IMG/VR virus record: IMGVR_UViG_3300022074_000099
Coordinates: 1-43,840 of that record
From: a virus
DNA length: 43,840 bases
Reading direction: 5' to 3' (one strand)
Part shown: in pieces, positions 21,074 through 32,348 of the stretch
How positions within the stretch are numbered: the first letter of the stretch is position 1
Layout of the letters: each line of letters opens with the position of its first letter
The notes under the pieces: generated by a model
Seen by the model: only the letters and a program-made list of their open reading frames with translations
Database searches by the model: none
What the model was told of the DNA's origin: nothing
Translations under genes and position numbers: made by a program

Positions 21074-21952
21074 TTAAGTGCTTTTAACATGGGATTTACG
21101 TGCTGTCAACGCATTATTTGCACTGGCATACGTATTTCTCATGTACGGTTTCACCGACTGCGGGTTACTGTGTCCTGTTACCGACATGATTTGTCCCATA
21201 GGAACACCGGCCTCGACCATCTGTGTCGTGCCTGTCCTCCGTAGGTCCATCAGCCGTAACTCTTCGGGCAATCCTGCTGACCGCATAACCTCCCTGCCAG
21301 CCTTGCTGAACCGCTCTAGGCTGTAGGGGTAATAGGTACCCCTGTAAGGAAACACGCGCGGTGCCACGTAGTCTTGAAAGCCGAAGTCTTCCTTCTGCTG
21401 CACGAGCATTTCGTACAGGTCATCTTCGATTGGCAGGCATACCTCTGCCCTCCGCTTGCTTTGCTCAAGATACAGCTTGCGGCCATCCATGTCTAGGTTT
21501 TCCCACTTGAGTAGGCGCATATCGCCTAGACGCTGGCACCACTCATACGCCATGTGTACAATCAGGCCAATGCTGCGGCTACCCCACAGGCCATACGCCC
21601 TGTCAAGGAATTGACGCACATGCTCCTCTGTCCACACTACCTTACGTTGTGGTGGTGTCTTGCGCTTGATGTTGGCAAACGGATTGACCATTGCATACTC
21701 CATGTCGATGGCGTAGCGATACACTAGCGACGACACGGTACACACATGGTTGGCAAACGAGATGCCGCGCTTGACCCATTCTTCGTAGGCGTGTTTGGCC
21801 TGCCTGCTCGACAGTTTGTCGAACTCGACAGAACCAAACTCACCAACCAACACGTTGAGGAAATATTGATAGTCTTTCTTAGACTTGTCCCTCAACATGT
21901 TGAAATTGTTGGAAGAATAGTATGTCAATACTAAGTCTTCGACTGTCTTCAT
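21074..21952 (-). CDS. int: tyrosine recombinase (integrase)
   Basis: 292 residues. An N-terminal SAM-like core-binding region (about 1-95) precedes the catalytic domain: R141 (CQRLGDMRL), K at about 166 (EQSKRRAE), R238 (MDLRRTGTT), H261 (TGHSNPQSV) and Y270 (VKPYM). The box usually written HxxR reads M235-D-L-R238, so the first His is replaced by Met. Integrases are carried by HMO-2011-type phages even when isolated as lytic. The start overlaps the previous stop (ATGA). No attachment site could be recognised nearby. Confidence 0.85.
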   Translation of the reverse strand: MKTVEDLVLTYYSSNNFNMLRDKSKKDYQYFLNVLVGEFGSVEFDKLSSRQAKHAYEEWVKRGISFANHVCTVSSLVYRYAIDMEYAMVNPFANIKRKTPPQRKVVWTEEHVRQFLDRAYGLWGSRSIGLIVHMAYEWCQRLGDMRLLKWENLDMDGRKLYLEQSKRRAEVCLPIEDDLYEMLVQQKEDFGFQDYVAPRVFPYRGTYYPYSLERFSKAGREVMRSAGLPEELRLMDLRRTGTTQMVEAGVPMGQIMSVTGHSNPQSVKPYMRNTYASANNALTARKSHVKST

Positions 21953-26047: not shown

Positions 26048-26063
26048 GGTCCGCTGTCGGACC
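26048..26063. repeat. 16-base palindromic repeat, copy 1
   Basis: GGTCCG, loop CTGT, CGGACC: a perfect 6-bp hairpin. On the coding (minus) strand it ends 0-1 base before the AAGGAG of the gene at 26034. One of five copies within 3.4 kb. Confidence 0.9.
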
Positions 26064-27423: not shown

Positions 27424-27636
27424 TTATGTCTCCACTCTGCCGTGTTCGTTGATGAGGATAGACTGGACACGGCAACGCCAGCCATAGCCTCGCAGTTCCT
27501 GCGCCTTCTCAGACGCCAGCCGCAGACTTGTGGTCTGCAACGCACAGTCCCACTGGACGGGTGCCAGCGGCATGTGACGCTGACGAAATGTGTCATTTGC
27601 TGGCGGCACGAAAGTCACGAGAAACAGTTCAGTCAT
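27424..27636 (-). CDS. hypothetical protein behind a repeat-containing leader
   Basis: 70 residues from the ATG at 27636 (MTELFLVTFVPPANDTFRQR...). A strand, then RLASEKAQELRGYGWRCRVQ and a terminal strand (SILINEHGRVET) suggest a small alpha/beta fold. Its leader, read 5' to 3', holds element B, the 16-base palindrome and then ACGGAG. This is the same order as before the gene at 26034. No family recognised. Confidence 0.55.
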   Translation of the reverse strand: MTELFLVTFVPPANDTFRQRHMPLAPVQWDCALQTTSLRLASEKAQELRGYGWRCRVQSILINEHGRVET

Positions 27637-27653
27637 AATCAACTCCGTTGCTT

Positions 27654-27669
27654 GGTCCGCTGTCGGACC
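27654..27669. repeat. 16-base palindromic repeat, copy 2
   Basis: Perfect copy of GGTCCG-CTGT-CGGACC. On the minus strand it is followed by AAGCAACGGAG and then the ATG at 27636; copy 3 shares almost the same downstream sequence. Confidence 0.9.
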
Positions 27670-27678
27670 AGTTAAGTA

Positions 27679-27736
27679 ATATCTAAGTGATAACACACTT
27701 TCACTAGAGTTCAAGTGTGCTTATCACGTAAGATAT
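27679..27736 (-). ncRNA. structured covarying leader element, copy B
   Basis: Plus-strand reading: ATATCT (27679-27684) pairs with AGATAT (27731-27736); internal loop AA / GTA; GTGATAA (27687-27693) pairs with TTATCAC (27721-27727); one bulged C; CACACTT (27694-27700) pairs with AAGTGTG (27713-27719); loop TCACTAGAGTTC. It begins right after the TAG of the upstream gene (27738) and lies in the leader of the gene at 27636. Stems differ from copies A and C by compensatory changes. Confidence 0.7.
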
Positions 27737-27737
27737 A

Positions 27738-27932
27738 CTAATCGGAAAGCCATTCATTGATGGTCACAATAATGCCGATGCAAATTGCGCTGGCACCGAT
27801 TACCGCCCAGAAGGAGATTTTATCTCCGGTGTGCAAGTAATCAAGAAACGACCAGAAGCCGACGATAGCCGCCATGTAAAACATGATGACGTTGCGAATT
27901 GCTTTCAGCAATGAAAAAGAAGGATGGTTCAT
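27738..27932 (-). CDS. 64-residue two-helix membrane protein
   Basis: From the ATG at 27932: MNHPSFSLLKAIRNVIMFYM opens a first hydrophobic segment (about 13-32), and KISFWAVIGASAICIGIIVT forms the second (about 38-58), ending NEWLSD. The leader has the 16-base palindrome (27951-27966) and ACGGAG. Three triloop hairpins lie within the gene (27813, 27873, 27898). Holin-like topology is possible, but there is no lysis context. Confidence 0.6.
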   Translation of the reverse strand: MNHPSFSLLKAIRNVIMFYMAAIVGFWSFLDYLHTGDKISFWAVIGASAICIGIIVTINEWLSD

Positions 27933-27950
27933 TTCAAACTCCGTTTGCTT

Positions 27951-27966
27951 GGTCCGCTGTCGGACT
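27951..27966. repeat. 16-base palindromic repeat, copy 3 (last base changed)
   Basis: GGTCCG-CTGT-CGGACT. It overlaps the stop codon of the upstream gene (27965-27967) and lies in the leader of the gene at 27932, followed on the minus strand by AAGCAAACGGAG. Confidence 0.85.
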
Positions 27967-28183
27967 AGTCGGCGTCGGCAATCATCTTGTCGAGCAGCGC
28001 CATTGCTTGCGCATCCTCGTATGCCTGCTGCATGTTGGCCTGTTGGCCGGTGACATAGCACCGAAACTCTGGACGAGTTTCTGGCTCATAGGAGCGGCTG
28101 TAGCCTGCAGTGTCCACACTGCGCCACGATGAGCCTAAAGGCTTGTGCCTTCCCAAATCTACGATTTGACCACGCTTACTCAT
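27965..28183 (-). CDS. 72-residue hypothetical protein
   Basis: From the ATG at 28183 with GGAG 8-11 bases upstream: MSKRGQIVDLGRHKPLGSSW, then a Tyr/Arg-rich middle and a helical acidic C-terminus (YEDAQAMALLDKMIADAD). The start overlaps the upstream membrane gene by 8 bases. Several small hairpins lie within the gene. No family recognised. Confidence 0.55.
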   Translation of the reverse strand: MSKRGQIVDLGRHKPLGSSWRSVDTAGYSRSYEPETRPEFRCYVTGQQANMQQAYEDAQAMALLDKMIADAD

Positions 28184-28349
28184 CTGCAAACTCCATTGCT
28201 ATAGCAATCCAACCACCGGCAAAGCAAGCTCCACAGGTGAACAAAATCATGCCCATAAATGGCGTGCCATTTTGCATAAGGTCGATGAAAGCAAAACAGC
28301 CAACCACCGCTGCTGAAAGCAGCATGAAAAAACAACCGATGATATACAT
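28176..28349 (-). CDS. 57-residue two-helix membrane protein
   Basis: Read by hand: the ATG at 28349 gives MYIIGCFFMLLSAAVVGCFA (first membrane helix), a short loop IDLMQNGTPF, then MGMILFTCGACFAGGWIAIA (second helix) and MEFADE, stop at 28176-28178. Four Cys in the membrane part. GGAGG lies 7-11 bases upstream. Small double-pass proteins like this are common early phage genes; function unknown. Confidence 0.6.
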   Translation of the reverse strand: MYIIGCFFMLLSAAVVGCFAFIDLMQNGTPFMGMILFTCGACFAGGWIAIAMEFADE

Positions 28350-28372
28350 ATCATAACCTCCAGAAAGGGAGA

Positions 28373-28986
28373 CAGCCGTTAGGCTGCCTCTTGATTGAGA
28401 AGTGACTGCTGCTCTTTCAGAGCAAGCAGCAAGTCTTTGAAAGTGATGCCGTTGGCATCAGCCCGAAGCATTGCCTCAAAGGCAATCTCTTCAGCCGACA
28501 TTGGAGCCAACTTGTTGGCAACAACAGTCTCTGACTGTGTTTCACCTTCGGTGCTTGGTCCGCTGTCGGACTTGTTGTCACCTTCGGTGTCACCACCTTC
28601 GGTGTCTGTAGCCTTCGGCTTCTGCAGCTTCGCTACCTCTGAAAGCAAGGCTTTCATAGAAGCAAACTTGCCAAGCAAATCGTTTTCAACGATGAAGTCA
28701 AAGTTCTGAAAGAACTTCAAAGCCTCTTGCCGACGTTGCTTTGCAACGGTATGAAGATTGGCATCTTTCAGCAAAGCTGAATCCATCCGAAGGCCACCAG
28801 ATTCTTGCAGAATCTCAGCCAGCAGTTCACCAAGGGTGAACCAGAAACCGTCTCTGACGGTCAGCGACTTGAACTTCGACTTGTCAGCTTTGACAAGTGA
28901 CTTGTCCCAACGGGACAGCACTAAGCCTTTGGCTTGAACAGTGTTGTTGGCTTCAGCAAGCTGAGTGGCGAAGGACTTCTTGGAAG
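28373..28986. repeat. hairpin-tiled coding region: about 25 consecutive stem-loops
   Basis: Perfect inverted repeats (start-end, stem, loop): 28373-28386 (5, GTTA), 28410-28424 (6, TTC), 28444-28460 (7, GTT), 28470-28486 (7, CAA), 28506-28519 (6, TT), 28524-28538 (6, TCT), 28543-28553 (4, TTC), 28558-28571 (5, CTGT), 28579-28589 (4, TTC), 28594-28604 (4, TTC), 28610-28620 (4, TTC), 28626-28634 (3, TTC), 28640-28656 (7, AAG), 28679-28693 (6, TTC), 28701-28717 (7, GAA), 28734-28748 (6, TTT), 28767-28781 (6, AAA), 28799-28815 (7, TGC), 28825-28841 (7, AAG), 28847-28861 (6, TCT), 28879-28898 (8, GCTT), 28903-28917 (6, AAC), 28923-28935 (5, TTT), 28953-28964 (4, CAAG), 28976-28986 (4, TTG). Nearly all have 3-base loops. 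Confidence 0.9.
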
Positions 28987-28999
28987 GTTGCTGTTGCAT
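28379..28999 (-). CDS. hairpin-encoded protein of unknown function
   Basis: 206 residues. AGGAG lies 6 bases before the ATG at 28999, so it is a real gene. N-terminus basic/polar (MQQQPSKKSFATQLAEANNT), helical middle (FTLGELLAEILQESGGLRMD; ALKFFQNFDFIVENDLLGKF), an acidic Gly/Ser/Thr linker at about 137-160 (ATDTEGGDTEGDNKSDSGPS), and a C-terminal helical pair (LAPMSAEEIAFEAMLRADAN; FKDLLLALKEQQ). No domain recognised. What is exceptional is the DNA: the reading frame is tiled by stem-loops with triloops, one palindromic repeat encodes SDSGPS, and the leader folds into element C, which reaches the Shine-Dalgarno. It is the first gene of the minus-strand block. It could be a replication-initiation, RNA-binding or autoregulated protein, but this is not known. 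Confidence 0.75.
   Translation of the reverse strand: MQQQPSKKSFATQLAEANNTVQAKGLVLSRWDKSLVKADKSKFKSLTVRDGFWFTLGELLAEILQESGGLRMDSALLKDANLHTVAKQRRQEALKFFQNFDFIVENDLLGKFASMKALLSEVAKLQKPKATDTEGGDTEGDNKSDSGPSTEGETQSETVVANKLAPMSAEEIAFEAMLRADANGITFKDLLLALKEQQSLLNQEAA
28557..28572. repeat. 16-base palindromic repeat, copy 4, inside a coding sequence
   Basis: GGTCCG-CTGT-CGGACT within the gene at 28379-28999, where the minus-strand reading encodes part of SDSGPS in the disordered linker. Flanked by the same CTT as copies 1-3. Confidence 0.85.
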
Positions 29000-29008
29000 C
29001 CTTATCTC

Positions 29009-29084
29009 CTATTTGTAGGTTTCTAAGGGATTATCCCCTTTCACTAAAGTTCAAGGGGTAATCCCGTGAAACCGTAACAAATAG
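29009..29084 (-). ncRNA. structured covarying leader element, copy C
   Basis: Plus-strand reading: CTATTTGT (29009-29016) pairs with ACAAATAG (29077-29084); GGTTTC (29018-29023) with GAAACC (29068-29073); internal loop TAA / GT; GGGATTA (29027-29033) with TAATCCC (29059-29065); bulged T; CCCCTT (29035-29040) with AAGGGG (29053-29058); loop TCACTAAAGTTC. Longest of the three copies. The outermost two base pairs include the first two bases of the AGGAG of the downstream gene (29010-29006), so folding could influence ribosome access. Confidence 0.75.
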
Positions 29085-29119
29085 AGAGATAGTTTTGGTG
29101 AGGTCAAAATGCCAAATCA

Positions 29120-29534
29120 AAATCGAAGATTTACCTCTGCGCAGGTCGTTCCGCATGGTTGCAGGAAAAACAAGTTTTTCCGAAACTCAGCGTGAGAACA
29201 TCGTGAGCGGAAGGCCGCAGTGAGGTGTTGCAAAAATGCAACAGCCTTGCTGTTGAGGGGGTGTAGTGTTGCAGCAAAACCACACCGATAGGTGGTGCTA
29301 GTTTGATGCATCGGCACTGCAACTTGTTGCAGAATTGTCACATCGCTGCTTCACGACATGCTGAAAGCATGGCAACTGATGCCATAACAGTTGGTAACAA
29401 CTGGCTGCTGACAGAACTATTTAGCATTTTCAATGCTTTAGGTCCGCTGTCGGACCAAGGCTGTTGGCAGCGGCTCCCTACAGCGCGTCATCTGACCGCA
29501 TTATGCCTGCGCACACGCAGGGTAGGCCGGGGCC
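29120..29534. repeat. non-coding hairpin array upstream of the hairpin-tiled gene
   Basis: No convincing gene lies in 29000-29809. Hairpins: 29120-29132 (5, GAA), 29164-29181 (8, AA), 29186-29196 (4, GCG), 29207-29218 (4, AAGG), 29226-29243 (7, AAAA), 29239-29255 (7, CTT; overlaps the last, so alternatives), 29283-29294 (4, GATA), 29317-29332 (7, TT), 29357-29371 (6, GAA), 29369-29385 (6, ACTGA), 29388-29403 (6, GTAA), 29423-29437 (6, TTC), 29441-29456 (the 16-base repeat), 29460-29471 (4, TTGG), 29506-29521 (6, CACA), 29525-29534 (4, GG). From 29535 to 29640 only one weak repeat (29574-29588) is seen. Confidence 0.85.
29441..29456. repeat. 16-base palindromic repeat, copy 5, non-coding
   Basis: Perfect GGTCCG-CTGT-CGGACC in the divergent intergenic region, flanked by CCAAGG on its right side rather than CCTTGG on its left as in copy 1. 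It is not adjacent to a start codon. Confidence 0.9.
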
Positions 29535-29650
29535 ACCGGGGGGGTGTAGCGTAGTATATACACACAGATACACAGATTAGGAAAATCTAGTGTTAACCAC
29601 AAGTGCAACTGACGCTAAAATAAAAATGAGCATCCGATAAATTATTGTAC

Positions 29651-29679
29651 TTGACAGGTGTTTCACATTCTGGTATAAT
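29651..29679 (+). promoter_or_regulatory. consensus sigma-70 promoter for the rightward late genes
   Basis: TTGACA (29651-29656), exactly 17 bases, TATAAT (29674-29679), plus an extended -10 TG at 29671-29672. A perfect match to the housekeeping consensus, so host RNA polymerase should start near 29686, about 10 bases before a long stem-loop leader. Confidence 0.9.
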
Positions 29680-29694
29680 TATGTATAACTAAAA

Positions 29695-29764
29695 CACTAA
29701 AGGTGTACAGTTAACTGTCTTATTACTCTAAGTACATAAATCACTTAGTTGTACACCTTTAGTG
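29695..29764 (+). promoter_or_regulatory. three-stem leader structure downstream of the rightward promoter
   Basis: A perfect 15-bp stem closes the element: CACTAAAGGTGTACA (29695-29709) with TGTACACCTTTAGTG (29750-29764). Inside are a self-complementary CAGTTAACTG (29708-29717) and a 6-bp hairpin CTAAGT / ACTTAG (29728-29733 / 29743-29748). It forms very near the transcript 5' end; it may stabilise the late mRNA, attenuate transcription (a weak T-rich run follows at 29772-29779) or be an operator. Confidence 0.7.
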
Positions 29765-29809
29765 ACTACTAAGTTTTCTTGTTAAACTCACTTAACTGTA
29801 TCACTAACA

Positions 29810-29914
29810 ATGACCAAGTATCTAATGTATACTCTTGTAGCTATTATATGTGCGTATATTGCGTACATCATGGGTGTAGCACTTGTGCATACGGTTTGTG
29901 ATTGTCTCAAATAA
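29810..29914 (+). CDS. possible 34-residue membrane peptide
   Basis: The ATG at 29810 begins MTKYLMYTLVAIICAYIAYI, one hydrophobic helix, then MGVALVHTVCDCLK and TAA at 29912-29914. No clear Shine-Dalgarno. It is first after the late leader and just before the gene at 29934. Small single-pass peptides occur at this place in related phages, but this one may be chance. Confidence 0.35.
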   Translation: MTKYLMYTLVAIICAYIAYIMGVALVHTVCDCLK

Positions 29915-29933
29915 TGAAAGTTTTTTCTTGACA

Positions 29934-30146
29934 ATGGCGAAGAAATCAGTAAAACTATACACAGACAATGTACTAGAAGCATTCTATGATGCTATCCGTA
30001 CTAACTCACTTGACAAACTTCATATCCCCCACAGTGATGTCTTCTACGTGCGTACTGCCGTTGAAGCACACTATGGGCGTTCATTTACATTGAAACACGT
30101 AGAGGATGCCATGAGGGCTGAAGGCTGGACTGAGGGCAACGAGTAA
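29934..30146 (+). CDS. small hypothetical protein
   Basis: 70 residues from the ATG at 29934 (MAKKSVKLYTDNVLEAFYDA...); the frame extends up to 29883 but without a ribosome site. The fold looks helical with a winged-helix-like length (AVEAHYGRSFTLKHVEDAMR). The stop overlaps the next ATG (TAATG). Function unknown. Confidence 0.55.
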   Translation: MAKKSVKLYTDNVLEAFYDAIRTNSLDKLHIPHSDVFYVRTAVEAHYGRSFTLKHVEDAMRAEGWTEGNE

Positions 30147-30358
30147 TGTTTACAGCAATGGTATTAGCATGTGCAATTGGGGTCACAGACCCTGACTCAT
30201 GTATAGAGGCCACAGATAATAGGGGTCCGTATGAGACCCGTGAAGAATGCTTTGCTCGTGCGCAGGAAATGATTGCGGGGATAGCATACACTATTCCTGT
30301 ACCTCTTAACTTCCATTTCAAGTGCGAAGAGCCAAAGACAAAAGGTATTTCCTTGTGA
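30146..30358 (+). CDS. small Cys-containing hypothetical protein
   Basis: 70 residues. A short hydrophobic start (MFTAMVLACAIGVTDPDSC), then a TREECFARAQEMIAGIA helix and a terminal FKCEEPK. The pattern of three to four cysteines with an N-terminal hydrophobic stretch suggests an exported or periplasmic small protein, as often seen in pelagic phages. It overlaps the next start. Confidence 0.55.
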   Translation: MFTAMVLACAIGVTDPDSCIEATDNRGPYETREECFARAQEMIAGIAYTIPVPLNFHFKCEEPKTKGISL

Positions 30359-30648
30359 GTGTTCCAGAGAGAGTCAAGAACAAGATGAAGGAAGAGGGTC
30401 TGTCCGGTGTGAACAAGCCGAAGAGGACACCTAGCCACCCCAAGAAGTCACATGCAGTGATGGCGTCAGAGGGCGGCAAGTATAAATTTATACGCTTCGG
30501 TCAGCAGGGCGTCAAAGGTGCTGGCAAGAGTCCTAAGACAGCAAAGGACAAAGCACGTAAGAAGTCGTACTATGCACGGCACAATGCACAGGGTAAACCG
30601 ACCACAAAGCTGTCTGCAAAATACTGGTCGCATAAAGTCAAATGGTAA
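30355..30648 (+). CDS. DUF6321-like basic protein
   Basis: 97 residues, using the GTG at 30355 that overlaps the previous TGA; the ATG at 30322 would overlap further. The segment GLSGVNKPKRTPSHPKKSHA, then IRFGQQGVKGAG and the terminal KLSAKYWSHKVKW, is the pattern I associate with DUF6321. Very basic; may bind packaged DNA or RNA. Function unknown. Confidence 0.65.
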   Translation: MSVPERVKNKMKEEGLSGVNKPKRTPSHPKKSHAVMASEGGKYKFIRFGQQGVKGAGKSPKTAKDKARKKSYYARHNAQGKPTTKLSAKYWSHKVKW

Positions 30649-30660
30649 TAGGAGAAACCG

Positions 30661-31779
30661 ATGGCTACTAAATTAATTACCGCATCGTCAAAGAAGCTGA
30701 CAGCGGCGCGTGGTGCTGTTCGTAGACAGGCAAAAGAACTTCGTGACATTAAAGCGGGTAAAAAGAAACTTCCCGGTTCTGCCGCTGACCGTGAAAAGGA
30801 AATGAAACTTCTTGAAGCTAATCTTGAACGGGCCAGAGAAAAAGTTAAGAAGGCAAAGGCAGAAGCAGATGGTGCGCCTGCAGCACCCCGAAAGTCTGAT
30901 ACAGGTCCAACCAAAGAAGGGCTGAAGAAAAAGCGTAGGGAAGTTCGCGACGAGCCGAAAGACCGCAAGGGTCCAAAGGCAAAGAAGAACATCGAAGAAG
31001 AAGGCAAGCTAGATAGGCGTATGCGCGAAAAAGACGAGCGTCGTGCAAAGCGTGGCCTTGCCGATGATGAGCGTGTCGGTATGACTGCACGTCTTGAGGG
31101 CCGTCTTCAAGAAGAAAAGGACTTGCGTAAGTTTGGCAACAAAGGCCGTGACTTTGAAGCAAAGGTTGATTCTGAACAAGCTGGTCGTGGTGCCTATCGT
31201 AAGGGTGCAGATTTCCGTCGTCAGGAAATGGCAAAACAAAAAGCCAACTATGCACGTCAAAAGGCACGTTCCGAAGATTCCTCTCTAACTGGTGCAGAGC
31301 GTCGTGCTGCTTCTGAAGAAATGCGTAAACTTCGTCAACGATTTGGCAATGAAGTAACTAAAGGTGGTGGCGAGAAGCTGATGCGTCGTCCTGCCCCCAA
31401 GAAACGCACACCTATTGGTGACAAGGCTCCGAAAGCACCGAAGCCTATTAGTCTTCGCGCTGCGTTTAATCAGGCTAAAAAAGACGGTCAGGGCAAGTTT
31501 ACCTTTGAGGGTACTTCTTACAACACCGATACATTGGAAAAAAGGTTTGCTGCTAAAGAAGCAGAACTTGGACTTAAAAAGGGTGGCGATGTAAAGAAAA
31601 AGAGAATCCCTGTAGTCACAGTAGGTATCGGCATGATGTCTGCGGACAAGGCTAAAAAGCCACGCACAGGAAGCACGGATTATCGCAATGGTGGCATGGT
31701 TATGGCCAGCATTGACAACTTGACCCCTGCTCAAAAGAACATGGTCAAGAAGATGGCAGCAGCCAATAAAAAGAAGTAA
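30661..31779 (+). CDS. Lys/Arg-rich coiled-coil protein of the late region
   Basis: 372 residues, very rich in Lys, Arg, Glu and Ala over residues 1-220 (SSKKLTAARGAVRRQAKELR and similar), consistent with extended charged helices. The end NGGMVMASIDNLTPAQKNMV resembles a tail motif shared by several late phage proteins. GGAG precedes the ATG. Possibly a virion or DNA-condensing protein. No family recognised. Confidence 0.55.
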   Translation: MATKLITASSKKLTAARGAVRRQAKELRDIKAGKKKLPGSAADREKEMKLLEANLERAREKVKKAKAEADGAPAAPRKSDTGPTKEGLKKKRREVRDEPKDRKGPKAKKNIEEEGKLDRRMREKDERRAKRGLADDERVGMTARLEGRLQEEKDLRKFGNKGRDFEAKVDSEQAGRGAYRKGADFRRQEMAKQKANYARQKARSEDSSLTGAERRAASEEMRKLRQRFGNEVTKGGGEKLMRRPAPKKRTPIGDKAPKAPKPISLRAAFNQAKKDGQGKFTFEGTSYNTDTLEKRFAAKEAELGLKKGGDVKKKRIPVVTVGIGMMSADKAKKPRTGSTDYRNGGMVMASIDNLTPAQKNMVKKMAAANKKK

Positions 31780-32348
31780 TGCACAGAGTAGAGCGGGACA
31801 TCCGCAACTGGTCTCACAACTTCCTTGAAGTACCAAATGTGAAGTTGAACGGACTCCCGCCCTGCCCTTACGCAAAACAGGCGTGGCTGGACAATAAGGT
31901 CACGTTCAGTATCAATACCGGCATTGAAGGTTTGATACGTGCAGTAAGGGTGTTTGACAACCACGACTACGACATCGTAGTGTGGGCAGAAGAAAATGTA
32001 ATCGACATGCATTACCTAGACGGGTTTGTCGATGGAATGAATGAACTGCTGTCGGTGGCTGGCATTGATATGCACCTGATGCAGTTCCATCCAGACTACG
32101 GCGCAGATGAGGCTGGTCTGGATTTCTTGTTGCAAGAAGGGGTCAGTGACCCTGACTTGGAATACTGCATGGTGTTCGTGCAGAAGCTGTCGCTTCTTGA
32201 TGATGCGGCATTGAGTCTGGAGAAGTCAGACTACTACATGAACTTCCCAGAAGATACCTACGAAGCCTTAGTGCTTGACAGACGGAGATTACGAAATGGT
32301 AATGAAGAAAAAGATGCGGGGCGGCGGCATGATGAAGACAGCGGCTAA
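31779..32348 (+). CDS. conserved late-region hypothetical protein
   Basis: 189 residues. The N-terminus (RDIRNWSHNFLEVPNVKLNG, LPPCPYAKQAWLDNKV) is a conserved block I remember in marine phages. The middle is acidic, with HxxD-type residues (WAEENVIDMHYLDGF). It may be a metal-binding enzyme-like protein, but no known motif is certain. The C-terminal 18 residues overlap the following small gene in another frame. Confidence 0.6.
   Translation: MHRVERDIRNWSHNFLEVPNVKLNGLPPCPYAKQAWLDNKVTFSINTGIEGLIRAVRVFDNHDYDIVVWAEENVIDMHYLDGFVDGMNELLSVAGIDMHLMQFHPDYGADEAGLDFLLQEGVSDPDLEYCMVFVQKLSLLDDAALSLEKSDYYMNFPEDTYEALVLDRRRLRNGNEEKDAGRRHDEDSG

Follow-up and report, generated by a model that had tools for sequence, protein, structure and literature searches.

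A dense mini-hairpin array at the start of the leftward early operon in a subset of HMO-2011-type phages

A stretch of phage DNA packed with small perfect hairpins, at a point where transcription diverges, raises the question of whether it is a replication origin, as an earlier note proposed, or part of something larger. The window, which is the whole stretch of DNA analysed, is a linear IMG/VR record of 43.8 kb. Judged by its sequence, it is from an HMO-2011-type marine phage: its portal shares 87% identity with the protein of Puniceispirillum phage HMO-2011 and 81% with those of Roseobacter phages CRP-1 and CRP-345, and a similar closeness holds for the terminase large subunit. Phages of this type have been described as dominant in the ocean and widely spread there (PMC9038755). 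The leftward genes include a Toprim-type primase, a DnaB-like helicase, a family-A DNA polymerase, a T7-like endonuclease, and a B12-dependent ribonucleotide reductase, and the rightward genes include the terminase and the portal. The reported block, 29120-29534, does lie at the divergence point between the leftward early and the rightward genes, with a perfect sigma-70 promoter beside it. No convincing consensus for a leftward promoter was found, and a tRNA/tmRNA scan of the window gave nothing. The main features are as follows.

27500..29534, minus strand (early-sense strand): the whole mini-hairpin array, with 35 stems of at least 6 bp (null 3.2, maximum 10 in 1000 shuffles)
28379..28999, minus strand: first early gene, 206 aa, belonging to no database family, with 15 stems of at least 6 bp within the coding sequence; the array tracks this gene family
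29120..29534, minus strand: the reported slice, non-coding, upstream of the first early gene
About 29524..29610, no strand assigned: conserved non-coding core ACACAGATTAGG...GTGTTAACCACA at the right edge of the array, a candidate origin and/or early control region
29651..29679, plus strand: perfect sigma-70 promoter TTGACA-17-TATAAT (12/12, 17-nt spacer), which serves the rightward genes
29934..30146, plus strand: first rightward gene, 70 aa, the anchor for retrieving the same locus in relatives; hairpin density is at background from here on

Extent and form of the array

Hairpins were counted as perfect inverted repeats with loops of 3-8 nt and stems of at least 5 or at least 6 bp, and the null was a dinucleotide shuffle of 1000 runs. 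The slice 29120-29534 contains 13 hairpins with stems of at least 5 bp (shuffle mean 2.6, maximum 9 in 1000) and 10 with stems of at least 6 bp (mean 0.74, maximum 4 in 1000). The dense hairpins are real, while the figure of sixteen given for them previously depends on the cut-off.

Hairpins of the slice, minus strand: 29120-29132, 29164-29181, 29173-29187, 29226-29243, 29239-29255, 29279-29296, 29317-29332, 29357-29371, 29369-29385, 29388-29403, 29423-29437, 29441-29456, 29506-29521

The extent of about 400 bp and the non-coding location described before have to be revised, as the slice is part of an array spanning 27500-29534 that is densest in the first early gene. Within that gene 15 stems of at least 6 bp are found against 1.4 expected from the shuffle, and the density falls from 20.8/kb in the gene to 11.6/kb in the leader and 6.8/kb downstream. 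The right edge is sharp, with 0 hairpins against 0.9 expected at 29535-29933 and 1 against 2.1 at 29934-31960, and the rest of the window is mostly near the shuffle expectation. Since the array runs on through the coding gene to about 27500, the hairpin-rich region is not specifically non-coding.

The stems are 5-7 bp long and the loops 3-4 nt. The frequency at which a stem continues by one more pair is 0.52 up to 6 bp, 0.30 past 6 bp, 0.165 past 7 bp, and 0.106 past 8 bp, where chance gives 0.255; the values past 7 bp lie below the chance level, so stems of 8 bp or more are avoided. Triloops, not tetraloops, predominate. Many loops on the early-sense strand are GNA, with a pyrimidine-purine closing pair in 82%, and GAA, GGA, and GCA closed by C-G are preferred; the base composition of the early genes contributes to this strand bias and is only partly controlled. 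Among DNA mini-hairpins, those with a GNA loop and such a closing pair are the most stable. Gaps of 4-20 nt between hairpins are common. Regular spacing or phasing was rejected, as the raw peaks were largely flattened once near-duplicate pairs were removed.

Two pairs of hairpins in the slice overlap (29226-29243 with 29239-29255, and 29357-29371 with 29369-29385), as had been described. Their interpretation as switches, in which one hairpin excludes the other, is not borne out by the closest relative (L017), in which the first pair has one broken hairpin and, in the second, a shifted hairpin without overlap stands in for the overlapping partner. Overlapping hairpins also occur in the coding part, and the overlaps look like a by-product of density.

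Conservation of the hairpins and exactness of their stems

When the first early genes of five phages (53-90% protein identity) are aligned by codon, hairpins fall at the same places with matched changes on the two arms, for example TTCACC-CTT-GGTGAA / TTTACC-CTT-GGTAAA / TTCTCC-CTT-GGAGAA, and some hairpins are rebuilt a few bases away in the orthologues. Among positions changed on both arms in many loci, 430 are Watson-Crick and 207 are not. At 93-96% local identity, 13 matched double changes are seen against 36 single ones, in counts that pool related loci and both comparison directions and whose events are not independent. The ratio of double to single changes as a function of divergence was tried as a test of mutation versus selection and abandoned, the close pairs being too few to decide.

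Retrieval via the first rightward gene gave 80 loci, of which 49 are non-redundant; 21 of these are rich (at least 5 stems/kb), 19 poor (fewer than 3/kb), and nine intermediate. A hot spot at the equivalent position is present in HMO-2011, CRP-1, and CRP-345 as well as in many uncultured relatives, and no hot spot is found in the first 50 kb of CRP-207, CRP-3, HTVC033P, or phiM6. Across loci the density is highest 0.5-1.5 kb upstream of the anchor gene, declines over several kilobases, and is at background at the anchor. The array covers the start of the leftward early operon in a subset of HMO-2011-type phages, and the reported block is its non-coding head. Its size window, its density in coding sequence, and the recurrence of hairpins at the same sites argue that the hairpins are selected and are not a bare mutational footprint.

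Tolerance of mismatches bears on whether the pairing matters as DNA or as RNA. Stems with one G-U wobble number 58, where 38 are expected without selection, 595 under selection for RNA stability, and 230 under a DNA-stability model. In a larger set there are 104 one-wobble stems against 68 unselected and 81 A-C stems against 68; the wobble excess is mild and mostly at the outer stem position (43 against 17). Single-step losses to G-T and to A-C are nearly equal, with a ratio of about 1.1 in the alignments. The enrichment of exact stems is about 13-24-fold across most RNA stabilities from −9 to −3 kcal/mol, as predicted with nearest-neighbour parameters against a local-shuffle null, and is lower for weaker stems. 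Because G-T (G-U) wobbles are barely tolerated, the stems suggest that what counts is exact complementarity in DNA, though a residual hint of RNA remains. A model of cruciform stability alone was discarded, since it predicted more mismatched stems than are seen.

Exact loop inversions with unchanged stems are found between orthologues, such as TCAAT-GGT-ATTGA vs TCAAT-ACC-ATTGA. Among fully changed triloops, 5 of 19 are exact inversions (expected 1 in 27, p = 5e-4), a p-value that is indicative only because the count was made by hand and two of the six listed examples have altered stems. Loop inversion with an unchanged stem is a described signature of template switching (PMC8604942), which has been proposed to create and maintain stems (PMC8794818). 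These inversions suggest that template switching helps to keep the hairpin arms matched.

The first early gene and the GTCC palindrome

The hairpins in the first early gene exceed what its codons would give, with 15 stems (loops of 3-5 nt) against a mean of 1.6 and a maximum of 6 in 500 synonymous-codon shuffles (z = 11); the orthologues give z = 7.6 to 10.6. Other genes of the window are mostly near the synonymous null, the exceptions being the small early gene at 27965-28189 (z = 5.4) and the tyrosine-integrase gene at 21074-21952. The latter holds 4 perfect hairpins against 0.4 in synonymous shuffles (z = 6.1) and is the strongest outlier outside the early region.

The first early protein gave insignificant matches only in PHROGs and Pfam. 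Its predicted structure (mean pLDDT 78) is all-helical, contains a disordered linker, and has a C-terminus that is also helical; it has no informative structural match in Foldseek against the PDB (best E 1.8), in a second look with VIA-align (best Z 3.4), or in BFVD. The one confident BFVD match, S4S2E1, is 51% identical and was taken as the HMO-2011 orthologue.

The gene family is present in 17 of the 21 rich loci, 1 of the 19 poor ones, and none of the nine intermediate ones; one of the 17 (L020) was assigned with only E = 1.6e-4 and fails the stricter cut used afterwards. The hairpin density is higher in family loci even with the first early gene left out. The family loci also share a site of the form GTCC-N6-GGAC. 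The consensus of 339 such sites is GTCCRAYRTYGGAC, self-complementary through the centre. The window has five of these palindromes, where 0.1 is expected, and a hairpin with a Shine-Dalgarno sequence in its loop lies beside the third.

29442..29455, minus strand: GTCCGACAGCGGAC, site 1, in the leader
28558..28571, minus strand: GTCCGACAGCGGAC, site 2, in the first early gene, encoding KSDSGP in the predicted disordered linker
27952..27965, minus strand: GTCCGACAGCGGAC, site 3, just upstream of the Shine-Dalgarno hairpin and ATG
27935..27947, minus strand: hairpin CAAAC-GGA-GTTTG with the Shine-Dalgarno GGAG in the loop, directly before the ATG
27655..27668, minus strand: GTCCGACAGCGGAC, site 4, just upstream of the ribosome-binding site of the next early gene
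26049..26062, minus strand: GTCCGACAGCGGAC, site 5, followed by AAGGAG...ATG

A GTCC site is present in 17 of 17 family loci and in 0 of 32 others (Fisher 2.8e-12), with GTCCAGCACAGGAC in L021, the sole other regex match, not counted because it does not fit the form of the site. It is also present in all 79 loci retrieved by the protein alone, some contigs of which overlap the first set. As the loci are related by descent, these counts are not independent, and the association of gene and array could partly be clade history.

The core of the site occurs in both orientations. Copies agree in core class at 0.90 within a genome and at 0.48 across genomes, as expected if the sites were read by a co-evolving factor or homogenised within the genome. 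The pattern resembles the repressor and stoperators of cluster A mycobacteriophages, in which several dispersed, genome-specific sites lie near gene starts (PMC9283540), with the link to a protein being inferred here. The stoperator described in that work has an asymmetric sequence to which a monomer binds (PMC9283540), whereas the GTCC site is a 14-bp palindrome confined to the early region, and the protein families are unrelated as far as tested.

Hairpin density among family members extends from rich down to near background (L019, L183-L185, and L203), so the early protein does not need a dense array. L019 has the early gene and five identical GTCCGACATCGGAC sites with almost no array outside the gene, showing that site and gene can exist without it. 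Two loci with divergent family members, L134 and L200, have five or six identical GTCC sites each with a GATGTC core, and hairpin densities of 13.4/kb over part of L134 and 10.9/kb in L200. In the related loci L126 and L128-L133 the GTCC sites lie in near-identical repeated leader units, AACGGTCCAATGTTGGACACTTT..AAGGAACTT, which would fit duplication of a leader cassette ahead of several small genes.

Possible roles of the array

Our tentative preference is for an array of DNA mini-hairpins that is under selection and linked to the first early protein, and we keep this reading short of an even chance because the association of array and gene may partly reflect shared ancestry. Its computed basis is the density, the compensatory conservation in position, the size window, the near-absence of wobbles, the bias of the loops towards one strand, and joint inheritance with the gene and GTCCRAYRTYGGAC. 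The functional unit would be DNA: the early-sense strand, once single-stranded, would collapse into a string of tight mini-hairpins. The single-stranded state might be the displaced strand of an R-loop or D-loop by the origin-like core, or might arise transiently under supercoiling. The first early protein, helical and with no known relatives, may act on the region and bind the GTCC palindromes specifically, and template switching between the arms, one being copied from the other, may supply the matched double changes and keep the stems exact. We would guess that the early or origin region is in the end kept open, primed, or protected as infection begins.

A stronger form, in which the early protein and a kilobase-scale, sequence-independent array of DNA mini-hairpins are one co-evolving system, is doubtful. 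The early-sense strand would then be written through the coding sequence as exact 5-7 bp hairpins, kept by template switching, and the chain would be read, as infection begins, in the form of folded single-stranded DNA.

A close precedent in DNA is phage N4, whose virion RNA polymerase uses three hairpin promoters with conserved flanks, each a single-strand hairpin extruded from the duplex. Like the array, these promoters have DNA stems of 5-7 bp and 3-nt loops and lie in the early region; unlike them, dozens of unrelated stems tile genes here. The N4 enzyme is a giant virion polymerase, and no candidate for one was found: the largest coding sequence of the complete HMO-2011 genome is 3387 bp, and the largest open reading frame of the window (1340 aa) has no PHROG match. 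The GAA, GGA, and GCA loops closed by C-G also recall d(GNA) mini-hairpins, which are extraordinarily stable and known from single elements and aptamers; we know of no genome arrays of them. Among papers that can be searched without a subscription, no published counterpart of the pattern was found, nor any paper that mentions HMO-2011 together with hairpins; the two main papers on HMO-2011-type phages do not mention hairpins.

If the array is a DNA-level device, the coding sequence of a double-stranded DNA virus would be shaped by a second code, that of exact hairpin complementarity, with a strength otherwise usual only in structural RNAs. It would be a natural case of compensatory evolution with wobble intermediates nearly absent, in which the maintenance of stems by selection, template switching, or both can be tested directly. 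The early genes of these phages are almost all unannotated, and the analysis singles out one gene and one 14-bp site among them.

A role in the RNA is possible though rather improbable. The early mRNA would be a chain of small hairpins that control translation by holding Shine-Dalgarno sequences in loops, shield the transcript from Rho or RNases, or carry sites for an antiterminator-like first protein. The hairpins all fall within a single transcription unit and stop where it starts, and the co-inherited factor is the first gene of that operon. A 5-bp hairpin holds the Shine-Dalgarno sequence in its loop at 31 of 241 distinct sites in family loci and at 1 of 263 in other loci, and GTCC sites cluster before ribosome-binding sites, 179 of 339 having a Shine-Dalgarno-like word within 30 nt; both observations suggest a role in translation. 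The wobble core GACGTT is commoner than the A-C form among GTCC sites. Outer stem pairs show the mild wobble excess that an RNA-level role would produce. The shortage of wobbles relative to the RNA-stability expectation argues against ordinary RNA function, as do the near-equality of the G-T and A-C single-step states, the preference for triloops over tetraloops, and a GTCC consensus that, unlike an RNA loop, is symmetric through its centre; no Rfam match at gathering score was found in the window. The loop hairpins and the positions of the GTCC sites keep an RNA or mixed reading alive.

A close precedent in RNA is lambda N with its nut sites (boxB). In both systems the presumed factor is the product of the first early gene, the leader and the gaps between early genes contain short hairpin sites, and cores differ between genomes and agree within one. 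Unlike nut, the GTCC sites are symmetric through the centre, and the dense array has no counterpart in lambda. A sequence comparison of the first early protein with solved structures gave three unrelated weak hits at E <= 5 and no match to N structures at that cut-off; its RRxEA motif may resemble the arginine-rich motifs of N.

It is unlikely that the array is a mutational footprint, in which template switching between imperfect inverted repeats in an often single-stranded zone lets perfect hairpins accumulate without function. In favour of this reading, exact complementarity depends little on stability, loops are inverted, and double changes appear at low divergence. Against it, copying should lengthen stems, whereas those of 8 bp or more are rarer than chance extension gives; hairpins are packed more densely in the coding gene than in the leader, which is non-coding, and they recur at the same sites in relatives of 53-90% protein identity. 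Quasipalindrome template switching likewise homogenises arms and inverts loops at short inverted repeats, also in coding sequence (PMC8794818, PMC8604942). The events described, in yeast genes and RNA genes, are scattered (PMC8604942, PMC8794818), whereas here the process would act throughout a conserved 2-kb array.

That the hairpins themselves serve a replication origin, as priming or helicase-loading sites on the lagging-strand template by an initiator-bound core, is at least as hard to credit. The block as an origin is possible, as the adjoining core is conserved across nearly all retrieved loci, rich and poor alike, and contains DnaA-box-like words, TTAACCACA and A(A/T)ATACACA (8/9 and 7/9, judged by eye). 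We also take TTAACCAC in the core to resemble part of a CtrA half-site. A promoter lies at the divergence, and the loops favour one strand, probably that displaced by a leftward fork. The cumulative GC skew proposed as a check has its minimum at 28-29 kb, which is not independent evidence for an origin because skew here tracks the orientation of the genes. In poor loci the core persists although the array is missing, the array extends over kilobases and is densest in the gene rather than in the core, and no clustered iterons were found. The origin reading is therefore unproven, with the array lacking in phages that have the core and the switch overlaps not conserved in the closest relative. 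Chance, base composition, or an assembly or amplification artefact of metagenomic contigs can hardly be the cause: shuffle expectations are slightly raised in the region, but 0 of 1000 shuffles reach the observed counts, the hairpins are conserved by compensation, and the hot spot in the isolates HMO-2011, CRP-1, and CRP-345 refutes an artefact.

On the other side of the core, a 29-bp inverted repeat (29695-29764, 83% complementary) starts a few bases downstream of the perfect rightward promoter, so a long hairpin would open the rightward transcript. Other loci have two shorter hairpins near the equivalent position.
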